This document shows, piece after piece, positions 45,788 to 59,429 of a DNA stretch of 64,000 nucleotides. Position 1 is the first letter of the stretch; every line of letters begins with the position of its first letter. The position numbers and the translations under genes are program-made. Under the pieces are notes generated by a model. That model saw only the letters and a program-made list of their open reading frames with translations. It did not search any database and was not told the origin of the DNA. This stretch comes from Flavobacteriaceae bacterium (GTDB lineage: Bacteria; Bacteroidota; Bacteroidia; Flavobacteriales; Flavobacteriaceae): contig CANGWK010000004.1 in NCBI GenBank assembly GCA_947457615.1, forward strand, positions 62,001 to 126,000, written 5' to 3'.

Positions 45788-46684
45788 TTACAATTCGGTT
45801 ATTAATTCGCTTATAGTATCAAATTTTCTAACAGATTCACTGAGGATTGTAGTATCAATATTTTGAACATTTCTACCAATGATCCAGAGTTGCGAATCTT
45901 CAACTAAAATTTGTTCTTTTAATTCTTGAATATAAGGATTAATCTTATTTTTTATTGGTTCAACTGTAGAATAACACACGTAAACTATGTTGTTGAAGTA
46001 TTTTTTTAAATCTTTCAAACTATCTATAGGAACGCTTTGCCCTAAATAAATACTCTTGTAGCCACTGGATAGAATCTCATAATTAAGGTACATTAATCCC
46101 AGTTCGTGCACTTCATCCATTGGTAAATAAAGCACAAATAATTTATCTTCTCTTGTTGGGCTTTGACTTTGAATTTTTTCGGTTATAACCAATAATTTTA
46201 ACTTGATCAAATAACTAATAAAATGTTCGTGAGAAGGGCTTACAGTTTCTGCTTGCCACAACAAACCAATTTCTTCCATTAACGGAATAAATACCTCAAA
46301 AAACACTTCTCGAAAAGACTTTTCAGACAGTAAAGCCTCGTAAGTATCCAAAAACAATTTCTGATCAAAGTTCATCATCGCCATTTTAAAAGAACTTATG
46401 GCATGACTTTTAGCACTTTTATTTGAAATTATTTCTTGAACTAATTCCGGAATTTTCTCACTTGGTAACTTAGAAATCTTAGAGATTTTATAACCATAAT
46501 CGTGTAACAAGGTGATATTTAGTAATTTTTGAAGAGCATGTAAGTCGTAAAACCGAATGTTGGTATCGGTTCGCATAGGTTCTAAAACATTATAGCGCTT
46601 CTCCCAAATACGAATAGTATGTGCTTTTATTCCCGATAAATTTTCTAAATCCTTAATAGTAAAAGTGTTTTTAACACTACCCAT
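45788..46684 (-). CDS. MerR-family regulator with B12-binding domain (CarH/LitR-like)
   Basis: MerR HTH FTIKDLENLSGIKAHTIRIWEKRYNVLEPMRTDTNIRFYD; Wx9EH motif WQAETVSPSHEH; B12-domain EVHELG (ExHxxG); adjacent to crtIBZ. Confidence 0.88.
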   Translation of the reverse strand: MGSVKNTFTIKDLENLSGIKAHTIRIWEKRYNVLEPMRTDTNIRFYDLHALQKLLNITLLHDYGYKISKISKLPSEKIPELVQEIISNKSAKSHAISSFKMAMMNFDQKLFLDTYEALLSEKSFREVFFEVFIPLMEEIGLLWQAETVSPSHEHFISYLIKLKLLVITEKIQSQSPTREDKLFVLYLPMDEVHELGLMYLNYEILSSGYKSIYLGQSVPIDSLKDLKKYFNNIVYVCYSTVEPIKNKINPYIQELKEQILVEDSQLWIIGRNVQNIDTTILSESVRKFDTISELITEL

Positions 46685-47080
46685 GGCTCTTTGTTTTTGT
46701 TTAACAAAAGTAGTAAAAATATGAACAATAAAATTTAAATGGAGGTAAATAAATGAATTTGGTTTTTTTCATTTATTAAGAAGGAGTTGGTATTGTTTTA
46801 TTCTTTATTTTAAAAGGTATCCTTGTACCATTTTTGAGGGTTAGATCTATATAATTTGAAATAGAGTTGTATGAATTTTCATTTCTTATTATGTGATCAT
46901 GAAATAGAAATGCCAATTAAAATCTTCAAAATTAGGTATATGAATTTTAATAAATTAGGTAGTTAATAAACGCCAACCAGACTTGATAATGTTTTTGTTT
47001 TAACCTCTTTATCTTATACTATTAAACTATCTATTTCATAAAATTAAACCAAAAAATTTTAACTATCAAATAGATTTTGA

Positions 47081-47326
47081 TTAATCGTAATTAACATTTT
47101 CAATTTCTTTGAAAATTTCTTGAACATTAATATCTAAAGCAAACCAAAAACGCAAGAATAGATCTAAGGTCATTCTTTGTTTGGAATCAAATACTCTTCT
47201 TACAGTAGTTTCTGAACATAATGATGCTTTTGCAAATTTTGTTTTATTTACTTCAAACTTAATTAGGAAAATTTTATAAATTTTATTTACAAGTTTTATC
47301 TCTATTTGTTCAAAACGATTCTGCAT
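47081..47326 (-). CDS. Small HTH (XRE-like) protein
   Basis: FEVNKTKFAKASLCSETTVRRVFDSKQRMTLDLFLRFWFALDINVQEIF resembles a lambda-repressor-like HTH. Confidence 0.6.
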   Translation of the reverse strand: MQNRFEQIEIKLVNKIYKIFLIKFEVNKTKFAKASLCSETTVRRVFDSKQRMTLDLFLRFWFALDINVQEIFKEIENVNYD

Positions 47327-47481
47327 TTAACAAAGAAAATAAAGAAAAAATTTAAAAAATTATTTTGGCTTGACTTATAAGTTGAATTATTTTTTATATT
47401 TGCAACAATTAATAGTCACTAATATGAATAAATAGTGTCTTAAATAGAAAATCATCAATAAAAAGAATCGAAATATTAATA

Positions 47482-47512
47482 AACAGGGAAGCCGAAAACT
47501 GTCTAGAGTAAG
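47482..47512 (+). repeat. 31-nt leader motif, copy 1
   Basis: aacagggaagccgaaaactgtctagagtaag, identical at 48170-48200. Confidence 0.9.
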
Positions 47513-47533
47513 CAAAAACAAAAACAAACAAAA

Positions 47534-48103
47534 ATGAAAAAAATTGTATTATTATTTATTAGCTTATTGGCTTTTAGCTCATTAAAAGCGCAAGATTCAA
47601 AAGCTTATTTAGGAGTTTCTGTTGGATATGCTATTCCAGGCGGTGACGGATCTGATAATTTAAATTCTGGCATTAATTTAGGATTTATAAATTTCGGATA
47701 TCGTTTTAGCAAGGCATGGGGTGCAACATTAAATTTAACTTCTTCTGGTTTTGCCTACAAAAATACTGGTGCACTAGGAGTTGCTGTTTTTTCAGTTGGA
47801 CCAATGTATTCTGCCAGCTTAAGTGAAAAACTATCTCTTGATTTAAAACCACAATATGCTATTAGTATTGTAGGAAAAGAGTCAGGGACTGGTTATGATG
47901 ACGCAACATTAAGAGGCTCAGGAATTGTATTAGGGAGTTCTTTAAATTTTGGTGTAACTAAAGGATTTAAATTGTCTTTAAATCTAGATTATACAACTGG
48001 AAAATGGAATGAACTTGAAATGGGTGGTACTACCTATAAAGTGACTTCTAAAAATAGTATAAGTTCACTTGTTATGGGTGCTGGTTTGAGGTATAATTTT
48101 TAA
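47534..48103 (+). CDS. Outer-membrane beta-barrel protein
   Basis: Signal peptide MKKIVLLFISLLAFSSLKAQ; alternating beta-strand pattern; terminal YNF. Confidence 0.8.
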   Translation: MKKIVLLFISLLAFSSLKAQDSKAYLGVSVGYAIPGGDGSDNLNSGINLGFINFGYRFSKAWGATLNLTSSGFAYKNTGALGVAVFSVGPMYSASLSEKLSLDLKPQYAISIVGKESGTGYDDATLRGSGIVLGSSLNFGVTKGFKLSLNLDYTTGKWNELEMGGTTYKVTSKNSISSLVMGAGLRYNF

Positions 48104-48105
48104 AT

Positions 48106-48143
48106 AAGTCCAATAATAAATAATGTTTTATTGAGTTGGACTT
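48106..48143 (+). terminator. Terminator after 47534-48103 gene
   Basis: aagtccaa...ttggactt followed by T-rich tract. Confidence 0.75.
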
Positions 48144-48169
48144 TTCCATTTTTTAGCCTAATAAAATGT

Positions 48170-48200
48170 AACAGGGAAGCCGAAAACTGTCTAGAGTAAG
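48170..48200 (+). repeat. 31-nt leader motif, copy 2
   Basis: Identical to 47482-47512, 26 nt upstream of the next ATG. Confidence 0.9.
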
Positions 48201-48226
48201 AACAAATTATATATTATTTATATCTT

Positions 48227-48679
48227 ATGAAAAAATTAAATTATTTATTTTTATTAATTCCGTTTTTATTATTATCGTGTTCCAAAGATTCAGCAACAGC
48301 CGAAACACCAACACCAACATATAGTGTTCAAGGTCTCTGGAAAACCACATCTGCTGTATTAAATGGAGTTGAAAAATTTGGGGGTACAAATACTGTTAAA
48401 AGTGAATTGAATTATTTTAATGCAGACGGAAGTTTAAGCACTCAATCATTTACTGATACTAACTTCTCCACATTAATTAGCTATTCGTCAGGAACTTATT
48501 CCATACCGAATACTTCAACAATAAATATGTCTGCCAATGCATACAATGCATCTGGGGCTTTTTTAGCTACATATAATGTGTCTTGCCAAGTTCAATTAAT
48601 TAATTCAACCCAACTGCAATTAAAAATTCTTAATTATCCTGCAGCTAATGATGTTTATGTAAAAAAGTTTGTAAGATAA
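48227..48679 (+). CDS. Lipocalin-like lipoprotein
   Basis: Lipobox LLLSCSKDS; YSVQGLWKTTSAVLNGVEKFGG..YFNADGSLSTQSFTDTNFSTLISYSSGTYSI. Confidence 0.7.
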   Translation: MKKLNYLFLLIPFLLLSCSKDSATAETPTPTYSVQGLWKTTSAVLNGVEKFGGTNTVKSELNYFNADGSLSTQSFTDTNFSTLISYSSGTYSIPNTSTINMSANAYNASGAFLATYNVSCQVQLINSTQLQLKILNYPAANDVYVKKFVR

Positions 48680-48710
48680 AATATTCTAAGAACTATAATA
48701 AAAATTAAAA

Positions 48711-48739
48711 AAAAGAGCAACCTCCCAGTTGCTCTTTTT
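48711..48739. terminator. Terminator (gagcaac/gttgctc family)
   Basis: aaaagagcaacctcccagttgctcttttt. Confidence 0.8.
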
Positions 48740-48757
48740 ATTTACAGAAATACAAAT

Positions 48758-49078
48758 TTAATCTGCCATCATTTCTAAATTTTCTCTTTTAATGAAACCT
48801 TTAGTTACTTGCCCTTTTTGATTTCTAAATTCTACATAAACGTATTCTCTATCTGAGTATTTGCATGCAGTCCAAACCATGTCATCCATTACTAGATATC
48901 CTTTACGTTGCACAAATCTTGCTCTAGTGCCAATGTGATCAGCATTATAAAAATAGGCTTTTTCAGTAACAACCATAAACTGGCATCCTGGCAATGGGGT
49001 TCGACTTGGCCTTCTTTGTGCATTCAATGTGTAGCAAATTGCAAATAAAAAACTGAATAGTATAATTGTTTTTTTCAA
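48758..49078 (-). CDS. Exported small protein, SH3-like
   Basis: Signal peptide MKKTIILFSFLFAICYTLNAQ; FMVVTEKAYFYNADHIGTRARFVQRKGYLVMDD resembles bacterial SH3 repeats. Confidence 0.55.
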   Translation of the reverse strand: MKKTIILFSFLFAICYTLNAQRRPSRTPLPGCQFMVVTEKAYFYNADHIGTRARFVQRKGYLVMDDMVWTACKYSDREYVYVEFRNQKGQVTKGFIKRENLEMMAD

Positions 49079-49127
49079 GATTTAAATGTTTTTAGTTTAG
49101 GTAATTAATTTTTTTTAAAGATTGTAA

Positions 49128-49675
49128 TTAATCTAATTCGCAATAGGTGTCATATTTGACTAATTCTGAAGTAACTATTGCTTTAGTTTTATCTTCTATT
49201 AAGTCTATCTTAATATTTGTTTTTGAAGCTGTGCAACTAAAATATTTTTTTTCTAAAGGAAAGAATATATAATAATTTCCATCATACTCTGGCATCCAAA
49301 AATAGCTTTTACTATCAATTATTTTATTTTGAATCGAAACACTTATTTTGATTTTTTTATCCCCTAACTTATATTTTAAGGGAAGTGCTTTAGAGCCAAA
49401 TGATATGAATAGAAAAGTGTTTTTAAACATGGCATTATAACCATTCTCTTCTTTAGTATCAATGTTGCGTACATCTAAATTTCCCCTTCAAATTTTTTTT
49501 GATTTCGAAAGCGAATTTCATTAATTAAAATTACATTCTTTTGATTTACACTATAAAGAGAATCAATAATTTTATTTGAATTTAAGGTAGCGTTCTCTTT
49601 AGCATAAATATTTTGAGTAATAAAATAAAAGGAACATATAAAAGAAGTTATTAATGTGTATGGTTTTATTTTCAT
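49128..49675 (-). pseudogene. Frameshifted exported protein gene (track ORFs 49475-49675 and 49128-49430)
   Basis: 5' ORF has a signal peptide and ends ...KFEGEI*. The -1 frame continues GNLDVRNIDTKEENGYNAMFKNTFLF... without a stop into the second ORF. Adding one G to the GGGG run (cccc at 49483-49486) restores one reading frame. Confidence 0.75.
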
Positions 49676-49799
49676 GATTATTTTATTAATTTACACAAAT
49701 ATATATATATTAAACTATAATTTAAGATTTTTTATTGATATATTATGCAAATTTGGTTTTATTTTTTCTTACATTTGATTTGAATCTAAATTAGAAATT

Positions 49800-50609
49800 A
49801 TGAAAAAAATAGTATTTATTGTTTTAATATTTGTCACCTCACTATCTTATAGTCAAACGGCAGAGGAATATTTCAAAAAAGCTCAAGATAAATTTAGAAT
49901 AAATCAAGGCAGTATAGGTGCTATAGAAGATTTTACCATTGCTATTAATTTAAACCCTAAATATGAAGAAGCTTACTATTGGAGAGGGATAATTAAACAT
50001 GAATTAGGAGACTTTCAAGGGGCCATAGAAGATTTTACTGAAGCAATAGAAATCAATCCAAAAAGTGATGCATATAAAGAAAGAGGAATAACTAAAAATG
50101 ATATACATTACTACCTAGGAGCCATATAAGACTTAACTAAAGCCATTAATTTAAACCCTGAAAATGATTCAAATTATTGTGAAAGAGGATTTTCTAAATT
50201 AAAGTTAAATGACAATTTAGGTGCGGAATTAGATTTTAAAAAAGCTATTGAAATTGGAGAATATTCTTCCAATTCTTATTATGCTAGAGGTCTTTTTTGG
50301 TTTCAAAAAAAAGAATATAGATTAGCTATAGCAGATTATTCTAAAGCGATTGAAATATACCCTGAAGACTTTGTTTCATATTTCGCAAGGGGGTTGACAA
50401 GACAATATCTCAATGACCACAAAGGAGCAATAGCGGATTTCACAAAAGTTATCATTATTGACCCTAAAATGTTGGGTTTTGATGCTTATTATTATAGAGG
50501 AGTTTCTAAAATAAAGTTAAATAATAAAAATGGTGCTTGTTTAGATTTTAAAAAAGGTGGTGACCCTTTAGGAAAAGCTGATGAAATGATTAAAAAATAT
50601 TGTAAATAA
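49800..50609 (+). pseudogene. TPR-repeat exported protein gene with one in-frame TAA
   Basis: 49800-50129 and 50394-50609 are in the same frame. The only interruption is TAA at 50127-50129 in GAI*DLTKAI, where a neighbouring repeat reads GAIEDFTEAI. Confidence 0.82.
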
Positions 50610-50610
50610 A

Positions 50611-50640
50611 AAAAAGAGCAACCACCCAGTTGCTCTTTTT
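50611..50640. terminator. Terminator (gagcaac/gttgctc family)
   Basis: aaaaagagcaaccacccagttgctcttttt. Confidence 0.8.
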
Positions 50641-50687
50641 TTGATTACACAAGGATTGACTTCTTACTTACCAACTAATTATCCATT

Positions 50688-50754
50688 ATAAAAAAAGAAA
50701 TCCAAATAAAACAATTTTAAGCAAGCTTGATTGTTTTATTTGGATTTCTTTTTA
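50688..50754. repeat. Scar repeat unit 1 (imperfect hairpin)
   Basis: aaaaaaagaaatccaaataaaac...gttttatttggatttcttttt, related to units at 51558-51630 and 51675-51746. Confidence 0.75.
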
Positions 50755-50935
50755 ATTTGTGTTAAAGGCACATTGTAATAAACGTTTTGTTCAGTAACAG
50801 TTGAGTAAGTTGTTGTATTTACTTATCTTATGATTTTCAAAGTTTTAGATTTCAATACCAAAGCATTTAATATCTCCTTCAAAGTAAAAGTTCAAATTCT
50901 CAGAGGTCTTTAAAGAACATTAGGAATAACAAAGT

Positions 50936-51124
50936 TTACTTTTCTGTTTCTTCCTCTTTTATGAAAATCTTATCCAAAGTTTTTCCTAATTTGGTTTCTT
51001 CTTTGGGTACGTTAGGATAATTTTCTTCTCTTTGTTTTTTACTTGAGTGTACGATATTCCACAGAGTGAAATACATATAAAATGCAAAGATAACTGCTCC
51101 TACGATAAAAAATCCAACACTCAC
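50936..51124 (-). CDS. Small membrane protein (GTG start)
   Basis: VSVGFFIVGAVIFAFYMYFTLWNIVHSSKKQREENYPNVPKEETKLGKTLDKIFIKEEETEK. The ORF track start at 51178 lies inside the upstream gene; a GTGA overlap suggests GTG at 51124. Confidence 0.65.
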   Translation of the reverse strand: MSVGFFIVGAVIFAFYMYFTLWNIVHSSKKQREENYPNVPKEETKLGKTLDKIFIKEEETEK

Positions 51125-51294
51125 GATGTTCTTCTTTGACGGATTACTAAAGCAAATAATAAAATTGTTCCAGGCCAATGTGCTGAATAAAGCGCTTCTT
51201 CATGTCTTCCGAGAAGGCCTAGCGAAATGGAATACATCATGCAAATAAATGCAAGAATAACAGGGTACCACTTAAAAATAAATAATCTAATCAT
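51121..51294 (-). CDS. 57-aa small membrane protein
   Basis: MIRLFIFKWYPVILAFICMMYSISLGLLGRHEEALYSAHWPGTILLFALVIRQRRTS, overlapping the next gene by GTGA. Absent from the ORF track. Confidence 0.65.
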   Translation of the reverse strand: MIRLFIFKWYPVILAFICMMYSISLGLLGRHEEALYSAHWPGTILLFALVIRQRRTS

Positions 51295-51557
51295 AGTTTT
51301 TTTTTACTTTAAACACAAATATATCGATTTTAAATTTGTAAAAAGTGTAAAATAGGAAGTTTTTATGAAATATTTTATTTTTAATTAAAATCGAATAATG
51401 TAGATATACTCTTGTTAAAATTAGTAAGAATTTTGTTTGCTTTACTTGAGTGCAAAGAGTTTTGTAATGTATGTTAATAATGAAACTGAAAGCTATTTAA
51501 CGGATGATTTTGTTTCTGAATTTTACATGAACTGGTACCTCCCAACAAAGCTAATCT

Positions 51558-51630
51558 TTAAAAAAAGAAATCCAAATAAAACATTTTCAAGTAAGGTTGA
51601 TTGTTTTATTCGGATTTCTTTTTATTCTTA
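51558..51630. repeat. Scar repeat unit 2 (imperfect hairpin)
   Basis: aaaaaaagaaatccaaataaaac...gttttattcggatttctttttattc; preceded by cctcccaacaaagct. Confidence 0.75.
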
Positions 51631-51674
51631 ACCAAGGTAGGATTGATTTCGTACTTCCCAACAAAGCTCCGCTT

Positions 51675-51746
51675 TGAAAAAAGAAAATCCCAAACTAAAT
51701 CAATTCAAGAAAGCTTGATTATTTAGTTTGGAATTTCCTTTTTATT
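51675..51746. repeat. Scar repeat unit 3, terminator-like hairpin next to the left att repeat
   Basis: aaaaaagaaaatcccaaactaaat...atttagtttggaatttccttttt; preceded by cttcccaacaaagct. Confidence 0.75.
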
Positions 51747-51762
51747 CGTGACCACGGTGGGA
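51744..51762. repeat. Left att-like direct repeat (tRNA-Leu 3' end remnant)
   Basis: attcgtgaccacggtggga, identical to 59342-59360 at the tRNA-Leu 3' end. Confidence 0.85.
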
Positions 51763-51942
51763 ACTGAACCCGTGTATTTTGTTGTTTTTAAAAATATCTA
51801 AAAACCATATAAATAAAGGCTTTAAGAGAATTTACTAAAAAAATAGAAACGATTAAATACATTAAAACACACTTTTCGTTAACTAACGGTTAACTAGATT
51901 AAAATTTTTGTTTATCTTTGAAATGTTCAAAAAGCAAAAATT

Positions 51943-53250
51943 ATGGCAACTTCAAAATGTTTACTTCAAAGTAAAAGCGATAACGCAAATATTTATATTC
52001 AATTTTCGATAAACAGAAAACAAGTTTATAAAAGAAAAACAGGTTTTGTAATTAATTCAAAAGATTGGAGCGAAACCAACTCGCAACCAATACAAAAAAA
52101 CACAGAATTAAAAGCGATAAAATCTAAACTAGATAAATTAATCAATTTTATAAACGATGCTTATAATGAATCGGTAAGTTTTGGCGAAACCATTACAGGC
52201 GATTGGTTACAACTTCAAATTGATTTATTCAATAATAAAGTACAGGTTATTGAATTAGACGTATTGACTAACTACATTCAAAAATATATTGACGAAGCAC
52301 CCTATAAACGTAATGCAAAAAGCGGAACGGGTTTAAGTGCTGGTAGAACCCAAAATTTAAAGCTATTTAAAAATACTATTTTACGCTTCGAAGTTGAGGT
52401 TTTGAAAGGTAAAAGCGTTTTGATTAAAAATGTTAATTTGAAATTTGCCGAAGACTACAAAAGCTGGTTGTTTAATCAAAAGTATTCAATAAATTATATC
52501 GGTAAAAACATTGACAACTTGAAAACCATTTGTTTAGATGCTTATAAAAATGATATTGAAATCTCAACACAATTAAAAAATATTAAGTCAATTTCAGAGA
52601 ATAAAGCACCCGAACAAATTATTTATTTAAGTGAAGACGAACAGGAACAAATAAAAAACGCTCCTATAATTCGCGAGGCAATTATAAACGCTCGTAAATG
52701 GCTATTGCTTGGTTGTTTAATTGGGCAACGTGGAGGCGATTTGTTGAATATTACAGATAAAAATATAAAAGAGTTAAACGGAATTAAGATAATTGAACTA
52801 AAGCAACAAAAAACAGGTAAATTGGTTGCAATACCATTACTACCCGAAGCACTTGAAATAATCGAAAGCGGTTTACCTTATAAAATTTCATTAGCACGTT
52901 ATAACGAATATATTAAAGACGTTTGTCAAGAGGCTGGAATAAATGAATTGATAACAGGGCGAATAAAAGAAACAAGCCGAAACGCTACAACCATAGAAAC
53001 AAAACCAAAATATAAGTTTATTACTTCCCACGTTTCTAGGCGTTCGTTTGCTACTAATTTTTACGGACGTATTCCAACACCCGTATTAATGAATATAACG
53101 GCACACGGAACAGAAAAAATGTTTTTATCTTACATAGGGAAAACCACATACGATAACGCTTATCAAATGTTAGAATATTTTAGTAAGTTAGCACCAAAGG
53201 AAAAAACACCGCCACAAATGGAGGTTATACACAACACAGGCACTAAATAA
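51943..53250 (+). CDS. Tyrosine recombinase / integrase
   Basis: Arm-binding N-terminus (KCLLQSKSDNANIYIQFSINRKQVYKRKTGFVI), LGCLIGQRGGDLLNIT, SHVSRRSFATNFYGRIPTPVLMNITAHGTEKMFLSYIGKT. Confidence 0.94.
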   Translation: MATSKCLLQSKSDNANIYIQFSINRKQVYKRKTGFVINSKDWSETNSQPIQKNTELKAIKSKLDKLINFINDAYNESVSFGETITGDWLQLQIDLFNNKVQVIELDVLTNYIQKYIDEAPYKRNAKSGTGLSAGRTQNLKLFKNTILRFEVEVLKGKSVLIKNVNLKFAEDYKSWLFNQKYSINYIGKNIDNLKTICLDAYKNDIEISTQLKNIKSISENKAPEQIIYLSEDEQEQIKNAPIIREAIINARKWLLLGCLIGQRGGDLLNITDKNIKELNGIKIIELKQQKTGKLVAIPLLPEALEIIESGLPYKISLARYNEYIKDVCQEAGINELITGRIKETSRNATTIETKPKYKFITSHVSRRSFATNFYGRIPTPVLMNITAHGTEKMFLSYIGKTTYDNAYQMLEYFSKLAPKEKTPPQMEVIHNTGTK

Positions 53251-53263
53251 ATACTTTGTTCAA

Positions 53264-54205
53264 ATGGCTAATAATTACGAAAATGTAATTGAAATACTGA
53301 AAAAAATTGATTATTCAATTATTGATGACGAACTAAATAATTACTTTGAAAACCTAACAGAAAGTGAAGCAATTGATTTTTTAAAATGGTTTGAATTTGA
53401 TTTGTTAAGCAATTGGAAAATAAATAAAAAATTAAACTCACAACAAACCAATATTGTTACAAATAAATTATTTGCTGGACATAGAGAAAAATTTAATCAA
53501 AAAATTGATTGTTTAGAAAATTGGCTAAAAGACAAAAAAACAAATAAGCCAATTAATTTAAAAAGCGTCAAAATCACAATAAGTAATAATTTAACTTTTA
53601 CTCAATATAAGAATGATTATGTTTTATTGCTTGAAAACTATTTAAAGCAATACGTTGACAATACAGAACAAACATTTATTCAACAACAACTTTTTTGTTT
53701 TAATGAATTTTTATCGTTTGTTGTTAACGGGGCAATGACAAAAGCAAAAAAACAAATGTTGCTGGAGGACTTGGAACAATCTACAACATTAGAAAATTTA
53801 CAACAAAGTACAGAACAAAAAATTGAATTTTTAGAATACAAATTAAAAGACGTTTCAAATAATAAAACACCTCAACAATCACAACCAAAACCAATAAATA
53901 AAACTAAAGATTATAAAAATACTATTTGGTTCAAAACAGGAATTACATTAGCTACGGGCGAAGCATTTAATTTATATTATAAATATAAAGAAGACAAAGG
54001 ACATTTTACAAAATTATGTTTAGAACTTGGATTTGAAAAAAAATATCGTCCTTACTTTTCAGAAACAATAAACAATAACGATAGTGACAAAAATACATTT
54101 GCCAATAAAGATAAACTTCAAAAGTTACATAAATATTTAACAGAAAATCAATTGAATTTTGGAGCTGAATTTTTAAGAAAATACAATCAAATTGAACCCG
54201 AATAA
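53264..54205 (+). CDS. Island protein of unknown function
   Basis: Follows the integrase by 13 bp; C-terminal GEAFNLYYKYKEDKGHFTKLCLELGFEKKYRPYFSETIN resembles tails seen on other Bacteroidetes island proteins. Confidence 0.6.
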   Translation: MANNYENVIEILKKIDYSIIDDELNNYFENLTESEAIDFLKWFEFDLLSNWKINKKLNSQQTNIVTNKLFAGHREKFNQKIDCLENWLKDKKTNKPINLKSVKITISNNLTFTQYKNDYVLLLENYLKQYVDNTEQTFIQQQLFCFNEFLSFVVNGAMTKAKKQMLLEDLEQSTTLENLQQSTEQKIEFLEYKLKDVSNNKTPQQSQPKPINKTKDYKNTIWFKTGITLATGEAFNLYYKYKEDKGHFTKLCLELGFEKKYRPYFSETINNNDSDKNTFANKDKLQKLHKYLTENQLNFGAEFLRKYNQIEPE

Positions 54206-54208
54206 ATG

Positions 54209-54243
54209 CGGTACTAAAACGGTACTAAAACGGTACGGTACTG
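54209..54243. repeat. Iteron-like repeats (cggtactaaaa)n
   Basis: cggtactaaaa-cggtactaaaa-cggta-cggtactg, followed by an inverted tagtacc. Confidence 0.75.
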
Positions 54244-54275
54244 TAAAATAGTACCAAACATTTAGAAACACTTTT

Positions 54276-54301
54276 GCTCTTATTAATCTTATTATAAGAG
54301 C
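54276..54301. promoter_or_regulatory. Inverted repeat immediately upstream of island HTH gene
   Basis: gctcttat-taatcttatt-ataagagc ends 3 nt before the ATG at 54305. Confidence 0.6.
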
Positions 54302-54304
54302 ATT

Positions 54305-54571
54305 ATGAACACACAAATTTTTTTAAACGGCATTACACTACAACAATTAGCCGAAGCACTTGCACCTCTTTTACAACCTCAACAGGTTAAACAAACAGAA
54401 CCCGAAAACGACTTTGTTACACGGGAAGAAGTTTGTAAACTATTATCGTTCAATAAAACGACTTTATACAAACATACCAAAAGCGGTAAACTTTTGAGTT
54501 ATGGCATTGGCAATAGGGTTTTGTATAGTAGAAAACAAGTACTTGAAGCCGTTAAACCTATTAATCATTAA
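54305..54571 (+). CDS. Helix-turn-helix (excisionase-like) protein
   Basis: DFVTREEVCKLLSFNKTTLYKHTKSGKLLSYGIGNRVLYSRKQVLEAV. Confidence 0.88.
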   Translation: MNTQIFLNGITLQQLAEALAPLLQPQQVKQTEPENDFVTREEVCKLLSFNKTTLYKHTKSGKLLSYGIGNRVLYSRKQVLEAVKPINH

Positions 54572-54576
54572 TTGTT

Positions 54577-55887
54577 ATGAGTTCAAATAAAAAACAGGCA
54601 AAAGGTTTAATCGATTTAAGCAACGCAATTGACAAAGCAATACAAAGCGAACCAAAAGAAGTATTAAAAGCTGGTTTTATACTTCCTACTAACTACGGAA
54701 CACCGCCCGACTATCAAAGTAGATTTAATTATTTTCAAACTGAATTTATACAATACAATTCAGATATACCAAAAGAACTAAAGGACGAATTTAATTTTCT
54801 TAAACAACTAATTAAACCCGAAAGTGAATACATAGAAACTAAACTTCAATATTATAAAATCGATGTTAACGAAGCAATACCACCACCACAGATAGCTTGG
54901 AGTTTATACAATACTAAAACAGATATTTTTAATGTTTTAGGAACACTTGGCAACTTTAGTTTGATTATTGGTAAAGCCAAAAGCCGAAAATCGTTTTTTA
55001 TAAATATTGCAGTTTCAACCGCATTAAGTAAAGATTTAATTCTAAAGCGATTTAAAAGCGATTTGCCACAGGAACAAAACCAAGTACTATACTTTGATAC
55101 CGAACAAAGTAAATATCACGTTCAAATAGCATTAAAGCGTATTTGTAAGCAAATTAATGTTGACGAACCACATAATTTGCACGTTTATCATTTAAGAAGT
55201 TTAACACCCTTTGAACGATTAGAAGCTATTGAACATTTGATTTATAACAATGATAAAATAGGATTTGTAATTATTGACGGAATTAAGGATTTAGTCACTT
55301 CAATAAATGACGAAAGTGAAGCCACAATGATTGCAAGTAAATTGCTTAAATGGACTGAAGAACGAAATATTCATATCGTAACCGTATTGCACCAAAACAA
55401 AAGCGATAATAATGCGAGGGGACATATTGGAACGGAATTAATAAATAAAGCTGAAACGGTTTTATCTATTACGAAAGCTGAAAACGATAATAATATTTCA
55501 ATTGTAGAACCACAACAATGTAGGAATATTGAACCCGAAATTTTTGCCTTTGAAATTAACGAATTTGGACTTCCTGTAATAGCTGAAAATTTTGAGTTAA
55601 GAACAGAAACCAATAAAAATAAATTTGATATTACAGATTTAGAAGACTTTAAAAAATATCAATTATTAACGGAGGTTTTCAGTAAAGGCGAAAGTTTTAT
55701 GTATGGCAAATTAATAGAACAACTTCAAATTGCTTTTAAAAATCAATACTCTAAAAAGTTAGCCGACAATAGAACAAAGCTACTTATTACATACTGTTCA
55801 AATAACGGCTGGTTAATTCAATCCAAAGCAAAAGCACCTTACACACTTGGAGCATTTAACGAAGTAGAAAAACAAGTAAATTTTTAA
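54577..55887 (+). CDS. RepA/RecA-like AAA ATPase
   Basis: LGTLGNFSLIIGKAKSRKSFFINIAVSTAL, VLYFDTEQSKYHVQIALKRICKQ, IGFVIIDGIKDLVTSINDESEATMIASKLLKWTEERNIHIVTVLHQNKSDNNARGHIGTELINKAETVLSI. Confidence 0.85.
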   Translation: MSSNKKQAKGLIDLSNAIDKAIQSEPKEVLKAGFILPTNYGTPPDYQSRFNYFQTEFIQYNSDIPKELKDEFNFLKQLIKPESEYIETKLQYYKIDVNEAIPPPQIAWSLYNTKTDIFNVLGTLGNFSLIIGKAKSRKSFFINIAVSTALSKDLILKRFKSDLPQEQNQVLYFDTEQSKYHVQIALKRICKQINVDEPHNLHVYHLRSLTPFERLEAIEHLIYNNDKIGFVIIDGIKDLVTSINDESEATMIASKLLKWTEERNIHIVTVLHQNKSDNNARGHIGTELINKAETVLSITKAENDNNISIVEPQQCRNIEPEIFAFEINEFGLPVIAENFELRTETNKNKFDITDLEDFKKYQLLTEVFSKGESFMYGKLIEQLQIAFKNQYSKKLADNRTKLLITYCSNNGWLIQSKAKAPYTLGAFNEVEKQVNF

Positions 55888-55926
55888 TTCAATCGGTTTA
55901 CTATTCCTTAAATTTCAATTGTTATC

Positions 55927-56002
55927 GGTTTAGTTTAAGCGTATATATACGCTATTAAACTGATAAACCTTTGATATATGGTTTAGTAAACTAGTTTAAA
56001 CC
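55927..56002. repeat. Nested palindromes (candidate replication origin or operator)
   Basis: ggtttagtttaagcgtatatatacgctattaaactgataaacc with perfect core agcgtatatatacgct, then ggtttagtaaactagtttaaacc. Confidence 0.7.
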
Positions 56003-56010
56003 TTAAACCT

Positions 56011-57021
56011 ATGAAACAATATAAATATAGTTTAGATAGAAGTAGTAAAAAGTTTATTTGTCCTAAATGCAATAAAAAAACCTTTGTTAAATACATTGAA
56101 ACTGAAACAGGGAACTACCTAAATGATACGTTCGGACGTTGTGACCGTGAAAGTAGTTGCAGTTATCAATGTACACCCAAGGGCGAATTTAAAAATAGTT
56201 TTGAAGTCGTAAATATTCCACCTAACGAACCAAGTTTTCACAATTACAATTTAGTTAGTCAAAGCGGTCGGAACTATAAACAAAATAATTTTGTTCAATT
56301 CCTTAAAACCATATTTTCAGAAACTGAAGTAAAAAAAGCAATATTAAAATACTTAATAGGAACTTCAAAACATTGGAACGGTGCAAATATATTTTGGCAA
56401 ATTGATAATAATGAGAATGTAAGGCACGGCAAAATAATGTTGGTTAATTCTGAAACAGGAAAACGAATAAAAGATAATAACGGCAAAGGTTTAATTAATA
56501 GTGTGCGAAGTGTTTTGAAATTAAAAAACTTCAATCTTAATCAATGTTTATTCGGTTTACACCTTATTAATGAAACAAACCAAAAGACCATTGCATTAGT
56601 TGAGGGCGAAAAAACAGCCGTTATAATGAGTGTTTTTAAACCTCAATACACTTGGTTAGCAACAGGAGGGAAACACGGCTTAAAATACGAATTTTTACAA
56701 CCTATAAAGCAGTATAAAATTATAGCGTTCCCCGACAAAAGCGAGTATTCTGATTGGTTGCAAAAGTCAATTGAATTAAACGGCTTCGGATTTAATATTG
56801 TTGTTAGTGATTGGCTGGAACAAACGGACTACGAATATGGAACAGATTTAGCCGATGTTTATATAAATGAAATAAAAGAAGCTAAAAAAGTTGAGGTAAT
56901 TTATTCAGAAACCGAACAAGTAATTTACAGAATAGAACAACACACGCCCGAAATTTGGGAACTTATTAAAACATTTGATTTAGTAGATACTAACGGAACA
57001 GAAATTAAAAAAGTAATATAA
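56011..57021 (+). CDS. DUF6371-like primase/toprim-type protein with zinc ribbon
   Basis: KFICPKCNKKTFVKYIETETGNYLNDTFGRCDRESSCSYQCTPKGEF; ALVEGEKTAVIMSVFKPQYTWLATGGKHGL is toprim-like. Confidence 0.8.
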   Translation: MKQYKYSLDRSSKKFICPKCNKKTFVKYIETETGNYLNDTFGRCDRESSCSYQCTPKGEFKNSFEVVNIPPNEPSFHNYNLVSQSGRNYKQNNFVQFLKTIFSETEVKKAILKYLIGTSKHWNGANIFWQIDNNENVRHGKIMLVNSETGKRIKDNNGKGLINSVRSVLKLKNFNLNQCLFGLHLINETNQKTIALVEGEKTAVIMSVFKPQYTWLATGGKHGLKYEFLQPIKQYKIIAFPDKSEYSDWLQKSIELNGFGFNIVVSDWLEQTDYEYGTDLADVYINEIKEAKKVEVIYSETEQVIYRIEQHTPEIWELIKTFDLVDTNGTEIKKVI

Positions 57022-57072
57022 AATAACTACATTTGTTAAATGAAATAAAAAAAATCACAACATATCGACAAA

Positions 57073-57217
57073 CTTATTCTTGCTAGCAAAACCGACCAAG
57101 TTTAAAATTTACACATTGAATAAGAATTGCACACGTCAAAGCGTGGGCTTTCTTATTATGTGTATGCGTTCTTGGTCGGACGTTGCTAGCAAATAAGAAA
57201 TGTCCCACGCTGGTTTT
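57073..57217 (+). ncRNA. Bistable palindromic element with two mutually exclusive stems
   Basis: Stem A 57073-57100/57171-57197 (cttattcttgctagcaaaaccgaccaag / cttggtcggacgttgctagcaaataag); stem B 57140-57157/57192-57211 (agcgtgggctttcttatt / aataagaaatgtcccacgct) followed by a T-run. Confidence 0.55.
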
Positions 57218-57253
57218 TTTGTAGTTAATTATTTAATTTAAAAAAATGTAACA

Positions 57254-57943
57254 ATGAAAAAAAATTTGACAACTGAACAACTAGAAATGAGAGCGAAAAC
57301 AAACAAGAAAATACTAAAATTTGGTTGCCTACCAATTTTTATTTTATGTGTTTTTTTAATAGTCGTTTTTAATTTTACCGATGACAAAAAAGCAAGTTCA
57401 ATAAAGATTAATACTAATATTGATAGTATTGTTTCTGTAGTTAAAAAATCCAAAGATTTTGAAATTAAAGAAGTATATTATAATAAAAAAGATAGTTCTT
57501 TTAACATTGCTATAACTAATAAAGACAACGTAATTAAAGAGCACGACTATTCAATACTTTATTTTGATAATTTATTTCATTTAGATAAAATCGAAGAAAT
57601 TGAGGGTGTTTATTTGTATGAATATAAAAACGGTAAATCTTTTAAAAATGACGACTATAATGAATATCTAACTTGCGAAAGTAAAAATTTAGCAAATCGA
57701 ATTAAGAAATTTGAAGATACAGGTTTTGAATATAGTATAAAATCATATTTAGAAAAGAATGTAGACGATCCAACAGATTTAGAAATTACTAATAAAACTG
57801 TTCTAGGAGAAAATGCAAACGGAACATTTTCAGTTAGAGTTTCATTTCGTTCAAAAAATGCTTTTGGAACTTTAATTATGCACACTGTTACTTGCGATAT
57901 AGACAAAGAGGGTAACGGGAAAAACATTATATTTGATAATTAA
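57254..57943 (+). CDS. Membrane-anchored island cargo protein, unknown function
   Basis: Single N-terminal TM (ILKFGCLPIFILCVFLIVVFNF), hydrophilic C-terminal domain. Confidence 0.65.
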   Translation: MKKNLTTEQLEMRAKTNKKILKFGCLPIFILCVFLIVVFNFTDDKKASSIKINTNIDSIVSVVKKSKDFEIKEVYYNKKDSSFNIAITNKDNVIKEHDYSILYFDNLFHLDKIEEIEGVYLYEYKNGKSFKNDDYNEYLTCESKNLANRIKKFEDTGFEYSIKSYLEKNVDDPTDLEITNKTVLGENANGTFSVRVSFRSKNAFGTLIMHTVTCDIDKEGNGKNIIFDN

Positions 57944-57964
57944 TTAATTTAATAATTTAAAAAA

Positions 57965-58528
57965 GTGAAGATGAGAAAAATAGTATTAGGATTGTTGATG
58001 GTAATAAGTTTTTCAGCATACAGTCAAGAAACAGAATTTACTTTTAATAGTGAAAGAGGTATGTCTGATTTTATAGTTACAACGGTTGAAGGCAAAACTG
58101 CTCCCGAAATTTATAAAAAAATGATTCATTGGATAAAAGTAACTTACAAGAATCCAAACGAAGTTATACTCTCAACTATTGAAAATGAATATTTAAGGTT
58201 TGAGGGGGTATCGGACATATCAACATTTAAATGTAAGTATCAAATAGAAATATCAATAAGAGAGGGAAAATATAAATATGATTTAATTGGTTTTCAAGTT
58301 TATGTTGGACCAAATCAATTGGGAGTACCAGTTGGATGGAATGACTTTAAATCCATTAATTTTATTAAAAATAGTACAAAAGAAAGTTTAGAAAACATGT
58401 ACAAGAAAGATGGAACTTATAGAGCTTGGTGTAAGTATACCCCCGAAATACCAACATATTTTAATAATCTAAACAAATCATTGTTTGAAAGCATAGTTTC
58501 AGCCGTAAAAAAAACAGATGGTTGGTAA
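57965..58528 (+). CDS. Exported DUF4468-like (TBP-like fold) island cargo protein
   Basis: Signal peptide MRKIVLGLLMVISFSAYSQ; GMSDFIVTTVEGKTAPEIYKKMIHWIKVTYKNPNEVILSTIENEYLRFEG. Confidence 0.7.
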   Translation: MKMRKIVLGLLMVISFSAYSQETEFTFNSERGMSDFIVTTVEGKTAPEIYKKMIHWIKVTYKNPNEVILSTIENEYLRFEGVSDISTFKCKYQIEISIREGKYKYDLIGFQVYVGPNQLGVPVGWNDFKSINFIKNSTKESLENMYKKDGTYRAWCKYTPEIPTYFNNLNKSLFESIVSAVKKTDGW

Positions 58529-58544
58529 GAAAACTAATTAAAAT

Positions 58545-58577
58545 AAAAAGAGCAACTTTAATCGGTTGCTCTTTTTT
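58545..58577. terminator. Terminator (gagcaac/gttgctc family)
   Basis: aaaaagagcaactttaatcggttgctctttttt. Confidence 0.75.
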
Positions 58578-58696
58578 TTGTTCAAATAGCAAGACCACAG
58601 GCAAAGCGGTAATGATTAAACAAATATAACTATAATTTTTAGCTATTAAAAATATTTATTACATTTGTTTTATCTATAATAGATTAATTTAGACAA

Positions 58697-58981
58697 ATGG
58701 CAAAAGGTATTAAAACAGGAGGGCGAACCGCTGGAGTAGTAAACAAGACAACTACAGAAATAAGGGAACATTTCCAAAATTTAGTTTCAAGTAATTTAGA
58801 GCAATTAAACGAAGACCTAAAAAGTTTAGAACCACTACAACGACTTAAAATGATTATTGAATTATCAAAATTTGTAGTTCCAACACTAAAAGCAACTGAA
58901 CTAACAACAAGTGAAGACAATGGCTTTAAACCTATTGAAGTCCGTTATATTACTTGGGGCGAAAATACTATTGAAATATGA
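58697..58981 (+). CDS. Small mobile-element-associated protein
   Basis: MAKGIKTGGRTAGVVNKTTTEIREHFQNLVSSNLEQLNEDLKSL resembles GGR-AG-NK-type small proteins common in Bacteroidetes phages and islands. Confidence 0.7.
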   Translation: MAKGIKTGGRTAGVVNKTTTEIREHFQNLVSSNLEQLNEDLKSLEPLQRLKMIIELSKFVVPTLKATELTTSEDNGFKPIEVRYITWGENTIEI

Positions 58982-59256
58982 TAGTAATTAACAACCCTAA
59001 AGACTTGTATAATTTGATTTTAAAAGATAATCTTAATGTTAAGCAAGTAAATACAATTTTAGAAAGTTTCTTAATTAAAAAATCATTTATTGTGTTTGAT
59101 GACTATAAACCTATTCAAATAGTCGAAATATTAAAAGAGTTTTTTTTAAAACATACAGGAACGGGCGAACAACCTATTTTTATTGATTTTCAAAAGAATG
59201 AATTAGACGTTAAAGATTTATTCAATAAAGAAAATAACTTAATTCAATTTGTATAA
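58978..59256 (+). CDS. Island protein of unknown function
   Basis: ATGA overlap with the preceding gene; MIVINNPKDLYNLILKDNLNVKQVNTILESF. Confidence 0.6.
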   Translation: MIVINNPKDLYNLILKDNLNVKQVNTILESFLIKKSFIVFDDYKPIQIVEILKEFFLKHTGTGEQPIFIDFQKNELDVKDLFNKENNLIQFV

Positions 59257-59341
59257 AAAAAAACACCCTAAAAAGAGCGTTTTTTAAAATGGTTAACTAA
59301 ATGTTAACTAAAACCTTTGTAAAACCTTATAAATAGGCTTA

Positions 59342-59360
59342 ATTCGTGACCACGGTGGGA
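59342..59360. repeat. Right att-like direct repeat, overlapping tRNA-Leu 3' end
   Basis: attcgtgaccacggtggga, identical to 51744-51762. Confidence 0.87.
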
Positions 59361-59429
59361 TTTGAACCCACACGCCCTTACGAGCACCACCCCCTCAAGA
59401 TGGCAAGTCTACCGTTTCTCCACGTGGCC
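59347..59429 (-). tRNA. tRNA-Leu(GAG)
   Basis: GGCCACG acceptor pairs with CGTGGTC; anticodon stem CCATC-TTGAGGG-GGTGG gives anticodon GAG; T-arm GTGGGTTCAAATCCCAC; CCA not encoded. Confidence 0.92.

Follow-up and report, generated by a model that had tools for sequence, protein, structure and literature searches.

Organization of the island at tRNA-Leu(GAG)

In this study we report an island of 7,598 bp (51744-59341) in a 64-kb stretch of DNA (hereafter the window) from a member of the Flavobacteriaceae, whose genus we infer to be Flavobacterium, and consider how an element of this size may move between cells. The initial annotation had noted a perfect 19-bp direct repeat around some 7.6 kb, and this repeat, ATTCGTGACCACGGTGGGA, is not to be expected by chance: it occurs only twice in the window (51744-51762 and 59342-59360), even with three mismatches allowed, while shuffled controls held a mean of 0.01 copies and none held two. 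On extension the attachment (att) repeat grows to 28 bp with two mismatches (26/28), the left copy then reaching 51771. As had been proposed, the tRNA-Leu(GAG) gene (59346-59429, minus strand), the integration target, shares its 3' end with the right copy, and the left copy lies 180 bp before the integrase start codon (ATG, 51943). The tRNA-Leu/tRNA-Lys region was looked up in 121 genomes of the genus and matched in all 121, and five Flavobacterium relatives (L181, L180, L171, L184 and L179) possess an exact empty attB in which the left flank of the window runs straight into the tRNA-Leu 3' end. These empty sites place the junction at the left repeat copy and thereby fix the island at 51744-59341. 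The initial annotation had set its proposal of a mobile island against a gene block standing in the same position in all relatives, with no empty site; on sequence this condition does not hold and the proposal stands, as relatives have empty sites and other species carry different occupants at the same tRNA-Leu(GAG), including a remnant in genome G060 (L004/L012) and islands sharing the same core (L325 and L326).

All recognised genes of the island lie on the plus strand, with no divergent repressor seen. The first encodes a tyrosine recombinase of 435 aa (51943-53250; PF00589, PF13102 and PF17293 above cut-off, phrog_216/phrog_1), which is followed by a 313-aa protein with no family match in Pfam or PHROGs (53264-54205); in relatives an unrelated or diverged open reading frame (ORF) usually takes this place between the integrase and the helix-turn-helix (HTH) gene, with a weak homologue in L332. 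Next come an HTH_17 protein of 88 aa resembling excisionases and AlpA (54305-54571; PF12728 2.5e-9, TIGR01764 2e-6, phrog_66 2.5e-5) and two replication-type genes: a RepA/RecA-like AAA_25 ATPase of 436 aa, a putative replicative helicase (54577-55887; PF13481 5.7e-12), and a 336-aa protein joining a Zn_ribbon_16 zinc ribbon to a DUF6371 domain (56011-57021; PF19898 1.4e-59, PF21957 1.6e-23), which appears to be Toprim-like and is a possible primase. Two putative cargo genes encode a membrane-anchored 229-aa protein with a hydrophobic stretch near its N-terminus and no family above cut-off (57254-57943) and an exported DUF4468-like protein (57965-58528, probable start ATG 57971; PF14730 2.2e-5, phrog_4002 2.3e-6) that recurs in other islands (L013, L099 and L334). 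The island closes with TS94, a protein of 94 aa (58697-58981), and its 92-aa partner S92 (58978-59256), whose genes are translationally coupled through an overlapping stop and start (ATGA, 58978-58981) and whose partnership is conserved in Flavobacteriales islands.

The gene content first listed (HTH gene, RecA/RepA-like ATPase, zinc-ribbon/DUF6371 protein, a pair of exported or membrane cargo proteins and two coupled ORFs) is borne out here, but the initial annotation left the 313-aa ORF unmentioned and missed the link of TS94 to terminase genes described below. The hidden Markov model search that it suggested yields families for the integrase, HTH, ATPase, DUF6371 and DUF4468-like proteins, but none for the 313-aa, 229-aa, 94-aa and 92-aa ORFs; for the last two, Pfam, PHROGs, PADLOC and NCBIfam returned nothing usable. 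No island ORF matches a large terminase subunit (TerL), portal or capsid family in Pfam or PHROGs, the large terminase and structural genes expected of a prophage being absent, and no known defence system was found in the island; weak PADLOC matches (mad1, oMTase) reflect the HTH domain or short chance similarities.

Between the DUF6371 gene and the cargo lies a strongly structured intergenic element (57040-57225, plus strand; z -7.2), a long, very stable nested hairpin with a T-run behind it and no match in Rfam. Three more mobile islands of the genus (L205, L206 and L207) have copies 73-77% identical upstream of cargo genes. We rejected the hairpin as a satellite-specific feature since islands of other kinds have it as well.

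The G060 remnant at this tRNA-Leu(GAG) (L012, 14037-15643) retains a TS94 gene with a stop, together with an ORF like S92; it also encodes a protein of 338 aa that, by eye, looks like the N-terminal domain of a restriction enzyme. In addition, some 4.9 kb to the left of the island (46735-51640), low in G+C (27%), is absent from L171, L175, L177 and L184, where a homologue of the gene at 45788-46684 adjoins the tRNA-Leu site; this segment is a second, probably older insertion in tandem with the island.

TS94 is related to phage genes that precede TerL

Key to the interpretation of the island is the family to which TS94 belongs. A scan of IMG/VR with TS94 recovered 73 relatives, and the genes directly downstream of viral relatives matched phrog_2, the terminase large subunit, in 18 of 20 cases tested. 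TerL lies within 1.4 kb downstream of TS94 relatives at 65 of 68 loci from the first viral scan, at 47/76 from a second viral scan with Bacteroidales relatives, and at 3/73 in cellular genomes, the TerL library for these counts being drawn partly from the same viral scans with its identities anchored by PHROGs. For example, in the circular phage MW202462.1 the TS94 homologue overlaps a gene annotated as phage terminase, with a head-to-tail connecting protein next. Profile-profile comparison of the island and phage versions of TS94 gave 99% probability (E 3e-18, 70 columns). The first-scan relatives were retrieved with the N-terminal motif of the query among the search patterns, so that conservation of MAKGIKTG is an ascertainment effect; the relatives also align beyond it, over the remainder of the protein. 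The predicted structure, with a basic, flexible N-terminal segment and a hairpin of helices, is of moderate confidence and would be compatible with a small terminase subunit (TerS) without being diagnostic of one; a sequence search of solved structures returned chance matches only, and the S92 model was too poor for a fold search. By homology and its synteny with TerL, TS94 is thus a putative small-terminase homologue. The statement in the initial annotation that the island has no relaxase, conjugation or virion gene stands as regards relaxase, transfer and capsid genes, and needs amending as regards TS94; its suggestion that the island may depend on a helper also holds.

Judged from its sequence, the island is likely to be an integrative phage satellite with a plan like that of phage-inducible chromosomal islands (PICIs). 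It combines a site-specific integrase and flanking att repeats with a TerS-like gene and a predicted replication module, and has no TerL, portal or capsid gene of its own. Because viral relatives of TS94 sit directly before the TerL gene, the island is probably a parasite of phages that is packed into their particles. Under such a scheme the integrase would excise the element together with the HTH protein, acting as excisionase or regulator, and the AAA ATPase and DUF6371 protein would replicate the resulting circle. TS94, perhaps with the coupled S92, may then divert the large terminase of a helper phage onto satellite DNA, which would leave the cell in helper particles and reintegrate at tRNA-Leu(GAG). 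At the envelope, the two cargo proteins probably affect either the host or the phage, which is the least secure step of the scheme.

A family of related islands across Bacteroidota

Among 75 genome loci and a few further relatives, 25 encode TS94 and an integrase on the same strand in a span of 14 kb, all without TerL. Their usual plan comprises the integrase, a variable ORF of 160-500 aa, an HTH gene, a replication module, optional cargo, TS94 and a small ORF. Across orders, TS94 stays at the end away from the integrase while the replication modules vary, from AAA plus DUF6371 in the window to a D5/DUF5906 primase (L094) and a Phage_CRI initiator (L114). Many of these islands occupy tRNA or transfer-messenger RNA (tmRNA) genes across Bacteroidota, and in most of them repeats longer than in the shuffled control were found at tRNA-Leu, -Arg, -Asn, -Gln, -Cys, -Met or tmRNA, with direct repeats of, for example, 47 bp (L096), 46 bp (L129) and 32 bp (L111).

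In two Pseudoalteromonas islands and one from Rudanella, a small terminase of the Pfam family Terminase_2 is encoded near TS94 as well. The Pseudoalteromonas pair, at tRNA-Pro (L109 and L110, 9488-10192), carries an integrase, a VapE-like primase and Terminase_2, beside which lies a TS94-like ORF, and represents a gammaproteobacterial PICI-like element with the TS94 family. Several larger TS94 islands (L211, L119, L322, L323 and L135) carry tail tape-measure genes, and neither TerL nor any head gene was recognised over the stretches examined; L211 (9368-15350) and L119 (10001-15382) have in common a tail-gene cassette of phrog_5377 and the tape-measure gene. By gene content, these islands are possibly tail-carrying satellites.

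The family is thinly spread, TS94 being present in 8 of 300 genomes of the phylum by profile search and in 8 of 100 relatives, as compared with 14 of 100 relatives for DUF6371; the DUF6371 protein as an IMG/VR query found no relatives. Since many islands with the DUF6371 core do not have TS94 and S92, we rejected the pair as a universal feature and regard it as a module added in the lineage of the window. Among PICIs, too, only some possess terS. More tentatively, the sequences raise the possibility that the island belongs to a phylum-wide, undescribed lineage of Bacteroidota satellites in which an unannotated TerS family would hijack packaging, replication modules would be interchangeable, and some members (those with tape-measure genes) may supply or remodel the tail.

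Observations against a satellite and alternative explanations

Several observations weigh against the satellite interpretation. Most of the DUF6371-core islands examined have no TS94, some of them (L325 and L326) at the same tRNA; the core therefore moves otherwise or is packaged without a TerS of its own. Most of the TS94 family has no name in PHROGs, where a single member out of 54 matches a terminase-small-subunit family, and the TS94 model, of moderate confidence as noted, had no match in the PDB by fold search. In one class of Bacteroidota temperate phages TS94 neighbours the integrase and does not stand before TerL. In the own genome of the island no convincing helper prophage was found, the search having been with phrog_2 alone and yielding weak matches only. 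Neither an excised circle, nor packaged DNA, nor a helper phage was observed. As a separate observation on the temperate phages just mentioned, those in L011, L202, L118, L132, L221 and similar loci have a giant gene of 2,700-5,500 aa, with the TS94 homologue convergent with the integrase and away from TerL.

The initial annotation left open whether the island was a satellite or a mobilizable element, and of these TS94 and the absence of PF03432 favour the former. As an integrative mobilizable element, the island would possess only an origin of transfer, or else the 313-aa ORF or another gene would encode a relaxase that escaped recognition; an integrative and conjugative element would mobilise it, with TS94 as a DNA-binding accessory of relaxosome type. 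We consider this unlikely, although it is the best of the alternatives. Relaxases are present in 28 of 100 genomes of the genus, the model matching the N-terminal part of the DUF6371 protein takes its name from PG0870, which lies close to mobilization genes in Porphyromonas, and the long hairpin at 57040-57225 is a candidate cis site. However, no relaxase family was found in the island ORFs, PF03432 is absent from the own assembly, and across 100 relatives no PF03432 relaxase is encoded in the vicinity of a DUF6371 locus, other relaxase families not having been searched genome-wide. Moreover, the viral relatives of TS94 adjoin TerL, and the hairpin is shared with unrelated islands, where it precedes cargo.

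Slightly less probable still is a cargo island that carries an integrase, lacks its own means of transfer and is spread passively through transformation or through transduction, whether generalised or lateral, TS94 then serving a non-terminase role, for example in phage interference or regulation. Islands with the same core but no TS94, even in minimal HTH-AAA/primase-DUF6371 forms (L326 and L335), are consistent with such passive spread, as is the lateral transduction recently recorded for a Bacteroides prophage (Nat Commun 2026, PMC12946183). Against it stand the main phage context of TS94, directly before TerL, and its retention at the end away from the integrase across orders despite quite different replication modules. 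We regard a decayed prophage, in which a temperate phage lost its structural genes and retained integrase, replication genes and TerS, as improbable: the core gene order is phage-like and some relatives still have tail tape-measure genes, but the island genes are all intact, and 25 islands from different families and sites follow a compact plan of ~5-10 kb, a repetition of one gene set with exchanged replication modules that makes random decay unlikely.

Comparison with known elements

As a putative satellite, the island most readily invites comparison with PICIs, both of the SaPI (Staphylococcus aureus pathogenicity island) type and of the Gram-negative type. Like these it is compact and flanked by att sites, with the integrase at one end, a putative HTH regulator, replication gene(s), a terS-like gene at the other end, and no TerL or capsid gene. 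In contrast to them it resides in Bacteroidota, has AAA_25 plus DUF6371 as its replication module, encodes a member of a TerS-like family outside Pfam Terminase_2, and has no recognised divergent repressor or capsid-remodelling gene. Mobilizable transposons of the NBU (nonreplicating Bacteroides unit) type are likewise small integrated islands with a tyrosine integrase, and occur in the same phylum, but no relaxase was detected in the window island and no PF03432 in its own genome. The Bacteroides temperate phages BF1-TP2 and BKO1-TP3 also have a TS94 homologue beside the integrase, but are phages of 65-68 kb with structural genes; they are a candidate helper type for the Bacteroidales relatives only. 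Finally, the minimalist satellites of Vibrionaceae (phage-inducible chromosomal minimalist islands, PICMIs) resemble the island in their reduced gene content, lack of capsid remodelling, and core of excision and replication functions, but have no terS homologue (PMC10803314), unlike the island with its TerS-like gene.

Significance

We found no earlier description of phage satellites in Bacteroidota, although our literature search was thin on subscription journals and preprints and this absence is not proof of novelty. A 2024 review (PMC11389934) states that what is known of helper-dependent elements comes largely from a few species, E. coli in particular, and lists recent satellite types from Cyanobacteria and Actinobacteria. 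A recognisable TerS-like family, together with the fixed island plan, offers a sequence handle for discovering satellites in Flavobacteria as well as in gut Bacteroidales, and opens their mode of transfer to direct tests.

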